Both the position numbers and the translations under genes were made by a program. The notes beneath the pieces were generated by a model. It made no database searches. It saw only the letters and a list, made by a program, of their open reading frames with translations, and had not been told where the DNA came from. 64,000 nt of DNA. Source: Endozoicomonas sp. 4G (lineage in GTDB: Bacteria; Pseudomonadota; Gammaproteobacteria; Pseudomonadales; Endozoicomonadaceae). Where the stretch lies: contig NZ_CP082909.1 in the NCBI RefSeq assembly GCF_023822025.1, positions 3,524,001 to 3,588,000 of the forward strand, read 5' to 3'. Positions 33,433 to 39,574 of the stretch are shown one piece after another (position 1 is the first letter of the stretch; the number at the start of each line of letters is the position of its first letter).

Positions 33433-33509
33433 TGGTCGGGGTAGAGAGATTCGAACTCCCGACATCCTGCTCCCAAAGCAGGCGCGCTACCAGACTGCGC
33501 TATACCCCG
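33433..33509 (-). tRNA. tRNA-Pro (UGG), copy 3 of 3
   Basis: 77 nt including encoded CCA. The acceptor CGGGGTA pairs with TACCCCG. The anticodon stem CCTGC/GCAGG has loop TTTGGGA, giving anticodon TGG for CCA codons. TTCGAAT is in the T arm. Confidence 0.97.
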
Positions 33510-33562
33510 ATTATTCACCCGGAAGCCGCAATGCTTCTGCAGGATGCGTCTCAACAAGAAAG

Positions 33563-33639
33563 TGGTCGGGGTAGAGAGATTCGAACTCCCGACATCCTGC
33601 TCCCAAAGCAGGCGCGCTACCAGACTGCGCTATACCCCG
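33563..33639 (-). tRNA. tRNA-Pro (UGG), copy 2 of 3
   Basis: Identical in sequence to the copy at 33433-33509, 130 bp away, with nearly identical spacer DNA. Confidence 0.97.
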
Positions 33640-33692
33640 ATTATTCACTCAGAAGCCGCGATGCTTCTGTAAGATGCGTCTCAACAAGAAAG

Positions 33693-33769
33693 TGGTCGGG
33701 GTAGAGAGATTCGAACTCCCGACATCCTGCTCCCAAAGCAGGCGCGCTACCAGACTGCGCTATACCCCG
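33693..33769 (-). tRNA. tRNA-Pro (UGG), copy 1 of 3 (promoter-proximal)
   Basis: Identical 77-nt tRNA, again exactly 130 bp from the next copy. Closest to the promoter at 33818-33846. Confidence 0.97.
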
Positions 33770-34922: not shown

Positions 34923-36284
34923 TCAGCTTTCACGCAGTTTGCGACAATCTTTCAACGTCTCAGCAATCATAAAAGCCAACTCCAATGCCTGATCGGCATT
35001 CAGTCTTGGATCACAGTGAGTATGGTAACGATTACCCAGGGCGTCTTCGGTCACCGCACGAGAACCACCAATGCACTCCGTAACGTTCTGCCCGGTCATT
35101 TCAAAATGAACTCCGCCGGCATAGGTTCCCTCTGCCTGGTGAACTGCAAAGAACTGCTTCACTTCACACAGAATCCGGCTTACCTCACGTGTCTTGTAAC
35201 CACTGGAAGCCTTAAATGTATTACCGTGCATAGGATCGCAACTCCACAACACCTGACGCCCTTCCCGCTGGACAGCACGAATCAGTTCTGGCAGATGTTT
35301 TTCAACATTATCAGCGCCCATACGCACAATCACATTCAGGCGTCCGGCTTCGTTCTGTGGGTTAATCAGGTCAATCAGGCGAATCAGGTCTTCCGGAGGC
35401 ATGGTTGGACCGGCTTTTAAGCCAATCGGGTTGCTGATACCCCGAACAAATTCAACATGACCGCCTTCAACCTGACGAGTTCTGTCGCCTACCCAGAGCA
35501 TATGTGCTGAACAGTCATACCAGTTACCGGAAAGGCTGTCCTGGCGGGTCATAGCCTGTTCATAAGGCAGCAGCAGAGCTTCATGGGAGGTATAGAAGTC
35601 AGTCTCGTTAATCACTCTGGAATGCTCGGAGGAGATACCACAAGCCTTCATGAAATCCAGCGCTTCATCAATGCGATCGGCCAGATGACAGTACTGCTCT
35701 GAATGTGGGCTGCTGGCGACAAAGTCCAGATTCCAGGCATGAACCTGTTCCAGAGACGCGAGCCCCCCCTGGGCAAAAGCCCTGAGCAGGTTCAGGGTCG
35801 ATGACGCCTGATGATAAGCCTTAAGCATTCTCTCTGGGTCAGGCCTCCTCGATTCAACAGTAGCTTCCATAGCATTGATGATGTCGCCGCGATAAATCGG
35901 CAGCTCAATACCATCAATAATTTCGGTACCCGACGAACGAGGCTTGGCAAACTGACCCGCCATTCGGCCCACCTTGATGACTGGACAACTGCCTCCAAAC
36001 GTCAGCACAACGGCCATCTGCATCAAGACCTTGAAGGTATCCCGAATATTATCTGCCGAGAACTCCAGAAAGCTCTCGGCACAGTCACCACCCTGCAGTA
36101 GAAACGCCTCACCCCGAGTGGCAGCTGCCAGCTTCTGGCGCAAAGCCCTTACCTCACCGGCAAAAACCAGTGGTGGCATGACGTTTAACCGCTGTTCTAC
36201 CTGTTGGAGGTGATCTTGGTCGGGGTATTCTGGCAGCTGGATGACGGGCATTTTTCTCCAGCTATCAACTTGCCATTGTTTCAT
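34923..36284 (-). CDS. Class II 3-deoxy-7-phosphoheptulonate synthase
   Basis: This 453-residue enzyme condenses phosphoenolpyruvate and erythrose 4-phosphate in the first step of the shikimate pathway. It is the plant/Mycobacterium-type (class II) DAHP synthase. Metal ligands are visible: Cys in [11 protein letters not shown], His in CDPMHGN, Glu in [15 protein letters not shown] and Asp in [24 protein letters not shown] and [13 protein letters not shown] are also canonical. The start is preceded by TTGAGG eight bases away. The end hairpin of the IscB element begins only about 20 bp upstream of the start codon, so the native promoter is displaced by 1.7 kb and expression may depend on the element. 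Confidence 0.96.
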
Positions 36285-36344
36285 CGTTTTACCTCAACTG
36301 GATACCCCGTACTTCTAGTACGGGGAGGAATGTTGACTTGCTCG

Positions 36345-37685
36345 TTAGAGCAAGCTGTAACCATAACCATCCACAGACTGAATTTTCTGACAGTTTCTCC
36401 ATGAAATTCCTTGGATGGTGTCACTTTCAGTCTTGATGTTGAATGAGCCTGTCGTTCTCACTGCAACCCGTCCTGTATACGTTCCTTGCCGTTTACCAGC
36501 TGGAACGATAGCCTTGACGATATCTCCAGTCTGGAAACCTTTTACTTGTTTGGAGCCTTTAGCCTTTGTACGGGGAAATCCGTATTTGTCCACTCTACAC
36601 ATTTGTCGTGAGCCTCTACCCATAGCCTTAATGATTAAGGGTTTTGTGCTTTCTGGTATGTATACACTGGCTCCAGACTCTCCTACACAGGCGGCATCTA
36701 TCCAGTGCTCTTTCTTGTATCCTTGCTGAGTGCGGTTGAACTTCGTTCTACCGCCAGTAGCAAAGGTGGTAGGAAGACCTATGGCCTGAACACGTCTAGC
36801 GGTTTCGTTTCTTGTGGCATTGACGGCAGCAGCATCTTTCAGACAATTGACCTTCTTTCCTTTCAAGATGTTGGTTACATTTCTGACTCTTGCTGTATCC
36901 AGCTTGTTCTTGTTCTTTTTCTTTGAAATAGATTCAAGCCACTGCTTAGGGTGGATAGCTCCTTTCTCTTCATTGCATGTACGACATGCAATGTACAAAT
37001 TCCCGATCCGGTTTGAGCCTCCCAGGGCTCTGGATATGAAATGTTCGATGTTGAGGATTGGGTCATTACTCACTCCCTTACAGTAAGAACATTTGTGTCC
37101 ATCTCGATACAAAAGATACTGTCTCAACTCAGTACCAAACAACGTACCTCGTTGGTATTCAACCCCCGAGATATCGGGGTTCTCCATCAACTGCATATCG
37201 AACTTAACACGCTCAACAGCCACATCACTGATGGGTGCTTTCAGGCAGAGCCTTTTAGTCCAAGTCTCAGTATTGAAGACTCGACTCATAAGGCTGGGCG
37301 GTAGCCAGCCTTCAGGTCTTGTTCGATTCATGAAACGGGCTTTTCTATAGCGGGTTTTCCGGTTTCTTCTGGCTCGACGGTTTGCACGTCGAGACTCAAG
37401 AGAATCCTTAACCCTCTGTCCTCTATGCTGGAGTTCAGCAGCAAAGACGACTTTCTTTCCACGATCACAGTCAGCAACAACGGCTATGCCTGTTGTTTTG
37501 CTTCCAACGTCGAATTTGAGTTCCAGCGGTTGTACAACACCACCTTCTCTCTCTTTCAGGATGATCGTGAAAGGATGGCGTCTGAAGACAGCCGCTTTAC
37601 CCTTGTCTAACAGCTTTCTTGCCCTTGCCGGATGGCAAGGCATAAGAGGCTTTTTGTTTTTGTCAAATACGAACACTCGGTTCAT
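36345..37685 (-). CDS. iscB: IscB RNA-guided nuclease (RRXRR/HNH)
   Basis: This 446-residue OMEGA nuclease is an ancestor-type relative of Cas9. The PLMP domain is at residues 1-50 (KKPLMPCHPARARKLL, GKAAVFRRHPF). RuvC-I Asp59 lies in KFDVGSKTTG. The Arg-rich bridge helix is about 89-120, RuvC-II Glu158 in VAVERVKFD. The HNH domain is at 192-242, with zinc Cys199/202 and 234/237 and catalytic His215, Asn229 and Asn238. RuvC-III has KEHWIDAACVG (His327, Asp330). All expected catalytic residues are present. Known IscB proteins use the RNA encoded just upstream to cut double-stranded DNA. The gene reads towards the DAHP synthase gene on the same strand. Confidence 0.95.
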   Translation of the reverse strand: MNRVFVFDKNKKPLMPCHPARARKLLDKGKAAVFRRHPFTIILKEREGGVVQPLELKFDVGSKTTGIAVVADCDRGKKVVFAAELQHRGQRVKDSLESRRANRRARRNRKTRYRKARFMNRTRPEGWLPPSLMSRVFNTETWTKRLCLKAPISDVAVERVKFDMQLMENPDISGVEYQRGTLFGTELRQYLLYRDGHKCSYCKGVSNDPILNIEHFISRALGGSNRIGNLYIACRTCNEEKGAIHPKQWLESISKKKNKNKLDTARVRNVTNILKGKKVNCLKDAAAVNATRNETARRVQAIGLPTTFATGGRTKFNRTQQGYKKEHWIDAACVGESGASVYIPESTKPLIIKAMGRGSRQMCRVDKYGFPRTKAKGSKQVKGFQTGDIVKAIVPAGKRQGTYTGRVAVRTTGSFNIKTESDTIQGISWRNCQKIQSVDGYGYSLL

Positions 37686-37689
37686 ACAT

Positions 37690-37962
37690 CGTTGTCCTTA
37701 GATTTGGTGCTTACGCACCGTTCTAGCCTTGCGGCAGTAAAGTTCACCTCGACAATGTTAATGGACGGTTTCTTGATAGCAGCACTGTGATTAACCCTCA
37801 ATACACTGTTTAACCACTATCCTTAGAGCGTGGGACTGGTGAAGCATCCCACGGTAACTATACATTCGTCCTTAACGTAGCAACCTTGCGGTTGCTGAGT
37901 CTGGTCACTTCTAACCCCAAATTGGGAGCTTTCTCAAGCCCCGTCCTTCAGGGCGGGGTTCA
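37690..37962 (-). ncRNA. Omega-RNA of IscB (scaffold region)
   Basis: About 270 nt lie between the element's left end and the iscB start, rich in hairpins: the end hairpin at 37936-37960, GCAACC(gcaa)GGTTGC near 37880-37900, a GTGGGA/TCCCAC pair near 37830-37855, and GGTGC(gtaa)GCACC at 37706-37719 just before iscB. The order and length match known IscB guide-RNA scaffolds. The guide itself would be the 16-20 nt of flanking DNA from about 37963 to 37985. Confidence 0.7.
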
Positions 37963-38162
37963 GTGACTCAATACTCTCGGCGCGTCGTATGACTTCATGA
38001 ACATGATAGGTCATTTTACATGAAACCGATGAACAACGCCCAACCCGAGCCAAGTGCACAGCGTGCTTTTAAACTACTGATAAAAGACCTTTACAGGCAA
38101 TTAAACAATTTGATATACAGTGCACTGGTAATTTAACCAAGTGCATTAACCGAATGAATCCT

Positions 38163-38231
38163 ATGCTATCCACTACCAAAACCATGATGAAGCGCGACAT
38201 GATTATGTGTTGCGGGGTCTGTCGTGGATAG
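38163..38231 (+). CDS. Candidate leader peptide (Met/Cys-rich)
   Basis: A 22-codon frame reads MLSTTKTMMKRDMIMCCGVCRG and stops 18 bp before a terminator stem. Five Met codons after the start region and three Cys codons near the end are unusual for a random frame. The segment TGCGGGG (38211-38217), inside the Cys-Gly codons, can pair with CCCCGCA (38253-38259), part of the terminator's 5' arm, so translation of the frame could control termination. There is no strong Shine-Dalgarno. A shorter start at the internal Met-Met is possible. The amino acid sensed cannot be decided from sequence. Confidence 0.45.
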   Translation: MLSTTKTMMKRDMIMCCGVCRG

Positions 38232-38249
38232 CTGAAAAGCAGAAAACGC

Positions 38250-38286
38250 AGCCCCCGCACCAAAAGAGGTCCGGGGGCTTTTTTTT
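38250..38286 (+). terminator. Attenuator-like intrinsic terminator before the ACT-domain gene
   Basis: AGCCCCCG(38250-38257)/CGGGGGCT(38272-38279) is followed by eight T, 42 bp upstream of the ACT-domain gene start. It is a strong terminator placed before, not after, a gene, with a competing 7-bp pairing partner in the upstream leader. Confidence 0.75.
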
Positions 38287-38327
38287 GCCTCTGCGAAATA
38301 GCGTCACGGGAAAACAAGGAGAAGACA

Positions 38328-38564
38328 GTGAGCGAGCTCAAACTCAGACTGGTCACTACAGGCAGCCTCGACAGCCTTGAGAAGGTACTGCATTCCAGTG
38401 CAAAAGACGGTCTGAAGATCAGCAATTTTTCTGCTGAACTGGTTCCAGAGAGAGGCCATTACGAGGTGAAAATATCTATCTCGGGCTTTACCAACCAGAA
38501 TCAGGTTGTCAGTAGACTGGCGATGGAAAAAGATATTCGCGAGCTGACCCCACTGCGCCGGTGA
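38328..38564 (+). CDS. ACT-domain small protein (IlvM-like)
   Basis: This 78-residue protein is essentially one ACT domain: LKLRLVTTGSLDSLEKVLHSSAKDGLKISNFSAEL...YEVKISISG...VVSRLAMEKDIRELTPL. The pattern resembles IlvM, the regulatory subunit of acetolactate synthase II, but no catalytic ilvG neighbour is present, so the partner is unknown. The GTG start at 38328 has AAGGAG six bases upstream. It lies behind a leader frame and attenuator-like terminator, which fits amino-acid-controlled expression. Followed by a small hairpin (CCTGCAG/CTGCAGG near 38587-38610), it appears monocistronic. Confidence 0.7.
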   Translation: MSELKLRLVTTGSLDSLEKVLHSSAKDGLKISNFSAELVPERGHYEVKISISGFTNQNQVVSRLAMEKDIRELTPLRR

Positions 38565-38626
38565 CCCCTGTCTACAGCACTTGTCTCCTGCAGCCTTTGC
38601 GTGCTGCAGGAAGTGCCGGCTGACAT

Positions 38627-38662
38627 GGGTCAGAGTTGGGGGCAGAGTTGGGATCAGAGTTG
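38627..38662. repeat. 12-bp tandem repeat x3 at the end of the M14-like gene
   Basis: GGGTCAGAGTTG, GGGGCAGAGTTG and GGATCAGAGTTG start at 38627, 38639 and 38651. The last unit contains the stop codon of the metallohydrolase gene. Confidence 0.85.
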
Positions 38663-39574
38663 CCCTATCACATACTTCAGACCACCAACAATGGCCGCCA
38701 CTTGGGCGTCATTACATTCTTCGCCCGTTACTTTTGGGCTATCCGGGTAAACTTCCGTTGTCGTACCAAACTTGCAGTCTGTTACCCCACCACACAGACC
38801 CAGCTTGCGCATTGGGTAGTGAATCACACCTTCCTGAATCACCGGGGAACCAATAATTTCACCCTGATCGTCTGCTGGTGCAATGTGCGTTACCTCCCTG
38901 ACAGAATCAATCACAGCCTTCTGAAATTCGGGAGCAGGGTTTTCAGTATCAGCCACCGTGTAGAAACCATCAGGTATTATCCCTTCTACATAATCCACAC
39001 CGTCCCGTGCTGCCAGAGCAGGGCGAAACTCGGTCTCATCGGTATCCGTGGTTTCATGTAGATCGAAGTGAATTAATACCTCCTGCCCCAAACCGCTTAC
39101 CAGCTTCATCAAGCTGGCTGATTCTTCTGCAGGGCTCTCTTTGTAAAAGGAACGGTTAGGATCAATGGCATTGGGGTTCCAGCGATTTATGGTTTCATAA
39201 CCCCAAGGGCTGATGCAGGGTGCCACCAGGATATTAAAATGGTCTATAAAATTTAAAGCCCCGGTTTCCAGAAATTTCAACGCACCGTGGACGCCACTGG
39301 TTTCATACCCATGAACGCCACCGGTCACCAGAACAACGGGCTTGTTGGCACTCCAGTTTCGACTCTTAATGGCATAGAGAGGAAAACGTTCAACGTCGTA
39401 AGAAAGGGCACCATACTGCTCTACATCGTAGTGCTCTTTTAAAGCCATGATTTTGGGTACAACTTCTTTCTGGTATTCACGATGAATCAGGGTTTGTTGA
39501 TACCAGGCTTGACGCTCTTCCTTGCCCCACTTTTGACCCGGAGTGCCTATGGGGAATCTATAACTGCTGCTCAT
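38654..39574 (-). CDS. M14-like zinc metallohydrolase (AstE/AspA-type)
   Basis: This 306-residue cytosolic enzyme has a carboxypeptidase/aspartoacylase-type zinc site: VTGGVHGYETSG (His, Glu), the NPNAIDPNRSFYK substrate-carboxylate Arg block, and LIHFDLHETTDTDE (second His). The C-terminal TTTEVYPDS contains the likely catalytic Glu. Members hydrolyse peptides or N-acyl amino acids; the substrate here is unknown. No signal peptide is present. It overlaps the upstream sulfurtransferase gene by four bases, so the two are co-translated. Confidence 0.85.
   Translation of the reverse strand: MSSSYRFPIGTPGQKWGKEERQAWYQQTLIHREYQKEVVPKIMALKEHYDVEQYGALSYDVERFPLYAIKSRNWSANKPVVLVTGGVHGYETSGVHGALKFLETGALNFIDHFNILVAPCISPWGYETINRWNPNAIDPNRSFYKESPAEESASLMKLVSGLGQEVLIHFDLHETTDTDETEFRPALAARDGVDYVEGIIPDGFYTVADTENPAPEFQKAVIDSVREVTHIAPADDQGEIIGSPVIQEGVIHYPMRKLGLCGGVTDCKFGTTTEVYPDSPKVTGEECNDAQVAAIVGGLKYVIGQL

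Follow-up and report, generated by a model that had tools for sequence, protein, structure and literature searches.

The genome of Endozoicomonas sp. 4G carries an IscB transposon directly upstream of the gene for class II DAHP synthase and in the same orientation, which raises the question of what such an insertion does to the start of the gene it has invaded. The window, i.e. the whole stretch of DNA analysed, included 64,000 nucleotides of contig NZ_CP082909.1 (positions 3,524,001 to 3,588,000), and all coordinates given without a locus name are those of the window. The position and orientation of the element relative to the gene, claimed earlier in a preliminary description made from the sequence, were confirmed together with the identity of the gene (PF01474, TIGR01358). 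The following features were recognized:

34923..36284, minus strand: class II DAHP synthase, the invaded gene, 453 aa (PF01474 over residues 4-441; TIGR01358)
36281..36284, minus strand: target sequence ATGA, of which ATG is the DAHP synthase start codon
36285..37967, minus strand: whole IscB element, 1683 bp, without target-site duplication (ends placed by aligning copies within the same genome, 12 at the left end and 9 at the right, and by the empty site in nine relatives)
36285..36304, minus strand: right-end tip TATCCAGTTGAGGTAAAACG, conserved between copies
36292..36295, minus strand: putative element-supplied Shine-Dalgarno sequence GAGG, 7 nt before ATG (duplex energy of the tip -6.9)
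36305..36325, minus strand: right-end hairpin CCCCGTACT-AGA-AGTACGGGG, without a T tract
36345..37685, minus strand: iscB, RNA-guided endonuclease, 446 aa (open reading frame, Pfam, NCBIfam, structure alignment)
37737..37967, minus strand: omega-RNA scaffold HEARO, RF02033 (Rfam match; begins with GTCAC, the left end of the element)
37968..37978, minus strand: remnant of the native Shine-Dalgarno region (GAGAGTATTGA), now separated from its gene by 1.68 kb (duplex energy -3.4)
37968..37987, minus strand: host flank adjoining the left end, the old DAHP synthase 5' leader, expected to encode the 5' guide of about 16-20 nt

The Pfam search of the 446-aa open reading frame found an RRXRR domain (240.5 bits) and an HNH domain, NCBIfam matched it to guided_IscB with 396 bits against a cut-off of 175, and solved IscB structures aligned with the protein. 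The protein thus has the RRXRR/PLMP N-terminus, the split RuvC, the HNH domain and the guided_IscB match above cut-off that define the IscB class, and its predicted function is RNA-guided DNA cleavage, as known for IscB. The acidic and histidine positions of RuvC and HNH and two CxxC pairs were recognized by eye, not by a residue-by-residue structure comparison. Directly upstream of iscB, the HEARO model was matched over positions 1-211 of 211 with 146.6 bits against a cut-off of 83, and the left-end hairpin is a part of this match. The earlier claim of an intact stand-alone IscB with omega-RNA, catalytic residues, zinc cysteines and two visible end hairpins (the right one at 36305-36325) was therefore borne out, including the comparison with omega-RNA covariance models that had been proposed as its check. 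Altogether four Rfam matches were present in the window, HEARO and three tRNAs, and the group I intron RNA of an IStron was absent. The tRNAs are three tandem tRNA-Pro (TGG) genes with a spacing of 130 nt at 33433-33769 on the minus strand.

The ends of the element were set by aligning 12 left and 9 right ends of copies of the same family in the same genome. In these alignments the similarity begins on the left at GTCAC and stops on the right at ...TATCCAGTTGAGGNAAAACG before ATGA; one copy (L004) reads AAAAATGAGTA at its right end, a poorer fit to the target. The defined ends, the subterminal hairpin and the lack of target-site duplication are those of an IS200/IS605-type element, and so is the fixed tetranucleotide target ATGA/GTGA, seen in the copies in the genome and in most of the distant relatives described below. 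In nine of nine relatives of the same genus the site is empty, and the DAHP synthase leader is joined directly to the same ATGA. The left flank aligned with three of these relatives (G002, G003, G005) up to 6 nt from the element boundary, at which point the ATG of the relative is 6 nt (G003, G005) or 5 nt (G002) away; the insertion therefore added or removed few bases of the host sequence, if any. A second copy lies at zapE, where nine relatives have the leader directly joined to the aligned zapE start, with ATGA in eight and ATAA in one (L236); by eye, the leaders of L228-L230 are most like the left flank of this copy.

The empty sites also settle the boundaries given previously. The preliminary description had proposed comparison with unoccupied sites as a check of its ends, and the relatives agreed in 9/9 cases with an insertion at this place, while exposing an error of 20 bp at the right end: the distance to the DAHP synthase start codon is not about 20 bp, as had been stated, but 0 bp according to both the aligned ends and the empty sites. 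The guide, placed at about 37963-37985, was correctly sought in the upstream flank, but GTCAC at 37963-37967 belongs to the element, and the guide starts at 37968. A length of about 16-20 nt is given for IscB guides in PMC9640706.

As a result of the insertion the last 20 bases of the element now precede the DAHP synthase ATG, in the order GAGG, 7 nt, ATG, and the Shine-Dalgarno sequence in the tip reads TTGAGG. Judged from the sequence, the start region of the gene is thus a part of the transposon, and we infer that ribosomes use the site that the element supplies. The duplex energies given here come from simple pairing with a generic 16S tail rather than with the tail of the organism itself. 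With this measure the native leaders of the nine relatives ranged from -7.9 to -8.1 in four (G001, G003, G005, G008), and five of nine had a weak native site, with -2.9 in G004, G006, G007 and G009 and -3.9 in G002. Since the close relative G002 has -3.9 against -3.4 in the window, the left-behind site may have weakened either before or after the insertion. The most direct effect of the insertion is predicted to be on translation, through a replacement Shine-Dalgarno sequence, because the element abuts the start codon itself.

The explanation that we find reasonably probable is that an IscB element which targets ATGA comes to lie on start codons and brings a ribosome-binding site of its own in place of the lost one. 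It builds on observations: the ends, the empty sites, the start-codon position at DAHP synthase and zapE, the order GAGG-N7-ATG, and an enrichment of tips at the starts of open reading frames. According to this explanation, an IS200/IS605-type IscB element would insert directly 5' of ATGA, sometimes GTGA, and insertions at start codons would always have one orientation, because ATGA overlaps many start codons and is not palindromic. The resulting order would be host leader, guide, omega-RNA, iscB and host coding sequence. The insertion would cut the invaded gene from its own ribosome-binding site, but the gene would keep a start site at the right spacing, since the Shine-Dalgarno sequence of the tip sits 7 nt before the boundary, and the tip would in this way restore translation. 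A host promoter upstream would transcribe guide, omega-RNA and iscB and then read into the gene, a step taken from logic because the scan described below found no promoter-like site upstream and placed four terminator-like sites there. With this guide IscB would cleave the empty allele, an activity known for IscB, and a Y1 TnpA encoded elsewhere would move the element.

The family proved to be a numerous one. In the genome, which is one contig of 6.0 Mb, there were 17 IscB protein matches, six of them full length with 96-100% identity and several others fragments, and 14 HEARO RNAs. The previous suggestion that this IscB might be kept for some other reason did not hold, given six full-length copies, 14 HEARO RNAs and 37 tips. 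Two protein matches at 39-41% identity to the window IscB and two of the HEARO RNAs belong to a second subfamily; its loci (L013, L014, L030, L031) have proteins of 406 aa with about 40% identity, HEARO RNAs of their own and different right ends.

The right-end tip had 37 matches in the genome with up to three mismatches, and its reversed pattern none. With equal pattern length and tolerance, only 16 left-end matches were found; the excess of right ends agrees with the tip being retained by selection, although ten or more of the matches to the right end are leaders of DUF29 type. Thirty of the 37 matches were returned as loci, and after ten DUF29-like loci lacking the element hairpin were set aside, 20 remained. 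Twelve of these 20 tips precede an open reading frame of 60 or more codons, compared with 15.1% of 604 control RTGA sites in the flanks (binomial p = 5e-6), and eight are not at long open reading frames. The genes behind the tips encode DAHP synthase, ZapE, UmuC, TatD, a YoeB-like protein, a DUF2237 protein, an HTH protein and an aspartyl protease. The Pfam domains of six of them are whole and begin near residue 1 (ZapE/AFG1 1-361, TatD 6-262, UmuC IMS 8-151, YoeB 11-90, DUF2237 9-122, DAHP synthase 4-441). Pfam matched none of three long proteins behind tips (L087, L090, L101), and for a 64-aa protein (L091) all matches were below cut-off. At three loci (L075, L099, L101) the tip persists in front of a gene although the remainder of the element has been lost or disrupted.

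Several smaller forms and odd neighbours of the family were seen in the same search. Minimal elements of 49 bp (L076, L090) consist of left-end bases, one hairpin and the Shine-Dalgarno tip and are followed by open reading frames, that of L076 encoding the DUF2237 protein; G000:C1:5065127-5065179 is also among the minimal elements. Elements of about 347 bp with omega-RNA and both ends, without iscB, are present at L083, L091 and L095. At L078:335-1504 (minus strand) the family tip precedes the gene of a pepsin-like aspartyl protease (PF00026, 268 bits), a family that Pfam names eukaryotic. The DUF29-like genes share the 20-nt tip of the element, with few changes, as their leader and without the hairpin. 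They were found at L077, L081, L086, L092-L094, L096, L097, L102 and L103 in the genome and at L107, L109 and L112 in relatives; most of their proteins start with MNSLYETD or similar, and PF01724 was confirmed for two (L081, L097).

The same arrangement was looked for in distant relatives, using 80 IscB loci with 48-56% identity, the best 80 of 327 relatives, and further copies from seven of those genomes. As hand-set boundaries can favour an idea, the right ends were also placed by a fixed rule, pairwise alignment and the leftmost RTG[AG] near the alignment end. This gave 141 segments (including 24 of 30 further-copy loci), of which 133 were distinct; 10 were without an estimate and 13 were dropped as orthologous or unresolved, leaving 110. 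Some boundaries are visibly misplaced by the rule (e.g. L163, L192, L155, L199), and all of them were retained. Ninety-two of the 110 right ends were at RTG[AG], compared with a control mean of 44 and maximum of 57, and 77 were at RTGA, compared with 24 expected and a maximum of 35 in 200 shifted controls. The right end of these distant IscB elements thus generally abuts a start-codon-like tetranucleotide.

When a duplex energy of -5 or lower was counted as a Shine-Dalgarno sequence, 35 of the 92 ends had one, 7 had a weak one and 50 had none. Open reading frames of 60 or more codons followed 18 of the 35, 5 of the 7 and 17 of the 50, respectively, against 25.2% of 7163 controls. The ends with a Shine-Dalgarno sequence differed from the controls (p = 0.001) and those without did not (p = 0.19), but the two classes were not significantly different from each other (p = 0.12), copies within one genome not being independent. 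The ends without the sequence could be split into Desulfobacter (10/20 at such open reading frames, counted from printed rows) and others (7/30). The hand-set tally, with boundaries for 63 of the 80 loci, tags partly typed by hand and L159, L166 and L175 representing one site, gave 18/24 for energies of -5 or lower, 7/19 for the others and 10/20 for Desulfobacter; the effect of the Shine-Dalgarno sequence is thus smaller with the fixed-rule boundaries. Acidaminobacter elements with a very strong Shine-Dalgarno sequence precede short open reading frames of 25 (L153), 11 (L156) and 6 (L157) codons.

The Desulfobacter latus family includes twenty copies ending TTGCCGCATTTT before ATGA (L136-L143, L145-L152, L154, L158, L160, L170), ten of them at open reading frames of 60 or more codons. 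No Shine-Dalgarno sequence was present in its scanned window; an AAGGAGG precedes the end hairpin, and this hairpin might place it close to the ATG. Three of the invaded genes were identified by Pfam, those of a class I (Trp/Tyr-type) tRNA synthetase, an aspartate-semialdehyde-dehydrogenase-type enzyme and LptE. Twelve annotated plasmid IscB loci were chosen by hand from 60 listed matches, and in six of them (L217, L219, L222, L224, L225, L226) the ATGA that follows the apparent right end holds the start codon of the next annotated gene; a Shine-Dalgarno sequence was present in L217, L222 and L226 and absent from the other three. One of the six, from Deinococcus, has the order ParA, iscB, ParB, with ParB 93 bp after the iscB stop. 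On a Cupriavidus plasmid (L225, about position 2898) the annotated end of iscB overlaps the next start codon (TGATGA), possibly another way to couple translation.

Two wider expectations were not supported. Against generality to all HEARO elements stand the subfamily of L013 and L014, which has other ends and no Shine-Dalgarno sequence, and several of the twelve plasmid ends, which lack one. As to distant relatives, a remaining native Shine-Dalgarno sequence was clear by eye in few of the 15 left flanks viewed (e.g. L188), an unquantified impression that gives no support; a HEARO match was found in 15 of the 16 loci included in this check.

Some of these results bear on a plainer explanation, which we regard as unlikely although it deserves serious weighing: that this is an ordinary IscB element, the start-codon position being a by-product of ATGA targeting together with selection against intragenic insertions, and GAGG a by-product of the hairpin. 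The half of the Desulfobacter copies that are at open reading frame starts without a Shine-Dalgarno sequence in the scanned window agree with it, as does the non-significant contrast between ends with and without the sequence. It is further favoured by the Moorena and Fischerella families, whose predicted end hairpins pair GGAGG with CCUCC; their Shine-Dalgarno sequence may be a hairpin side effect, masked, or opened by ribosomes finishing iscB just upstream. A pure hairpin, on the other hand, predicts no preference between a Shine-Dalgarno sequence and its complement, whereas the terminal stretch of 43 end clusters was Shine-Dalgarno-like only in 14, anti-Shine-Dalgarno only in 4, both in 1 and neither in 24 (14 against 4, p = 0.03; each cluster was represented by its first member alone, and nine tips were hand-typed, not all in exact register). 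This bias would favour a role in translation, but shared ancestry could explain it. The broken copies in the Endozoicomonas genome that retain the tip before genes also argue against a by-product. In the window family, GUUGA is paired with UCAAC in an 83-nt fold, where the last GG and the spacer stay unpaired, and in a 56-nt fold a low-frequency structure (0.12) pairs the ATG region.

That the element would act on transcription instead, supplying or blocking the DAHP synthase promoter as the preliminary description had suggested, we think improbable. The element does sit between the old leader and the gene, but a consensus scan of 36200-38700, weak evidence either way, found no sigma-70-like site on the minus strand, within the element or upstream, and no terminator-like site at the right end, leaving the suggestion unsupported. 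The single promoter-like site was on the plus strand (2.7 expected by chance); that none was present upstream on the minus strand either leaves room for a weak internal promoter. The five terminator-like sites (2.4 expected) were all on the minus strand, one inside iscB (37115-37136) and four upstream of the element. On the plus strand at 38154-38564, a 25-codon leader-peptide-like open reading frame, a GC-rich hairpin with a T run and a 78-aa open reading frame were seen by eye. They look like an attenuator-like arrangement; the 78-aa frame had no Pfam match, and the hairpin and T run were unlisted by the plus-strand terminator scan.

A domesticated IscB that regulates DAHP synthase, for example by guide-directed binding to the leader, is suggested by the intact nuclease and RNA beside a biosynthetic gene, but was rejected as highly improbable at this locus, because the element is absent there in 9/9 relatives of the same genus, five other full-length copies are present at other sites, and the nuclease motifs are intact by eye.

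As for the mobility of the element, the absence of TnpA from the window, noted earlier, was upheld by a genome-wide Y1 search: none of the matches lies in the element or the window, and 13 were found elsewhere, seven of them above 110 bits. These seven belong to two families of elements with ends of a different appearance. No TnpA partner sharing the ends of the IscB element was found among them: none of the seven loci has a right-end match, and the two partial left-end matches, of 14 bases (L033, L035), fall beyond the transposase elements as aligned.

A broader form of the start-site explanation is put forward tentatively, as we hold it to be somewhat short of probable: some IscB elements would be start-codon parasites, with the guide under the promoter of the gene and the tip as a new ribosome-binding site, all in one operon, and decayed elements, including those of 49 bp, would leave portable ribosome-binding sites behind. 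Under the start-site explanation, insertion at start codons in one orientation only would provide for the transcription of the guide. It would also explain why insertion between leader and gene is tolerated, even at the tRNA synthetase, semialdehyde-dehydrogenase-type and LptE genes of Desulfobacter, and the low cost of IscB elements would become directly testable. More generally, transposons could replace the translation start regions of bacterial genes.

With the known IscB/OMEGA elements of the IS200/IS605 group the window element has in common IscB, HEARO with the guide position in the 5' flank, the lack of target-site duplication, the right-end hairpin and the insertion before ATGA/GTGA, the last of which was reportedly included in the HEARO description of 2009. 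Unlike them, the window family ends in a Shine-Dalgarno sequence at start-codon spacing, and its tips precede long open reading frames in the proportion given above. IscB, HEARO RNA and ATGA/GTGA insertion are thus known, while start-site replacement may be undescribed: in a limited search of titles and abstracts, no link of IscB/HEARO insertion to start codons or ribosome-binding sites was found. The TnpB elements of IS200/IS605 and IS607 likewise have an RNA-guided nuclease on a small transposon. The RNA of TnpB carries its guide at the 3' end and can be transcribed from an internal promoter, whereas IscB needs transcription from outside the element, because its guide is the 5' end of the RNA and is drawn from the flanking DNA. 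IStrons, a group I intron combined with an IS (PMC4227781), resemble the window element as transposons with an additional function that protects the host gene from the effects of insertion; they are spliced out of the RNA, whereas the transcript of the window element would stay whole and be translated from the site that the element supplies.
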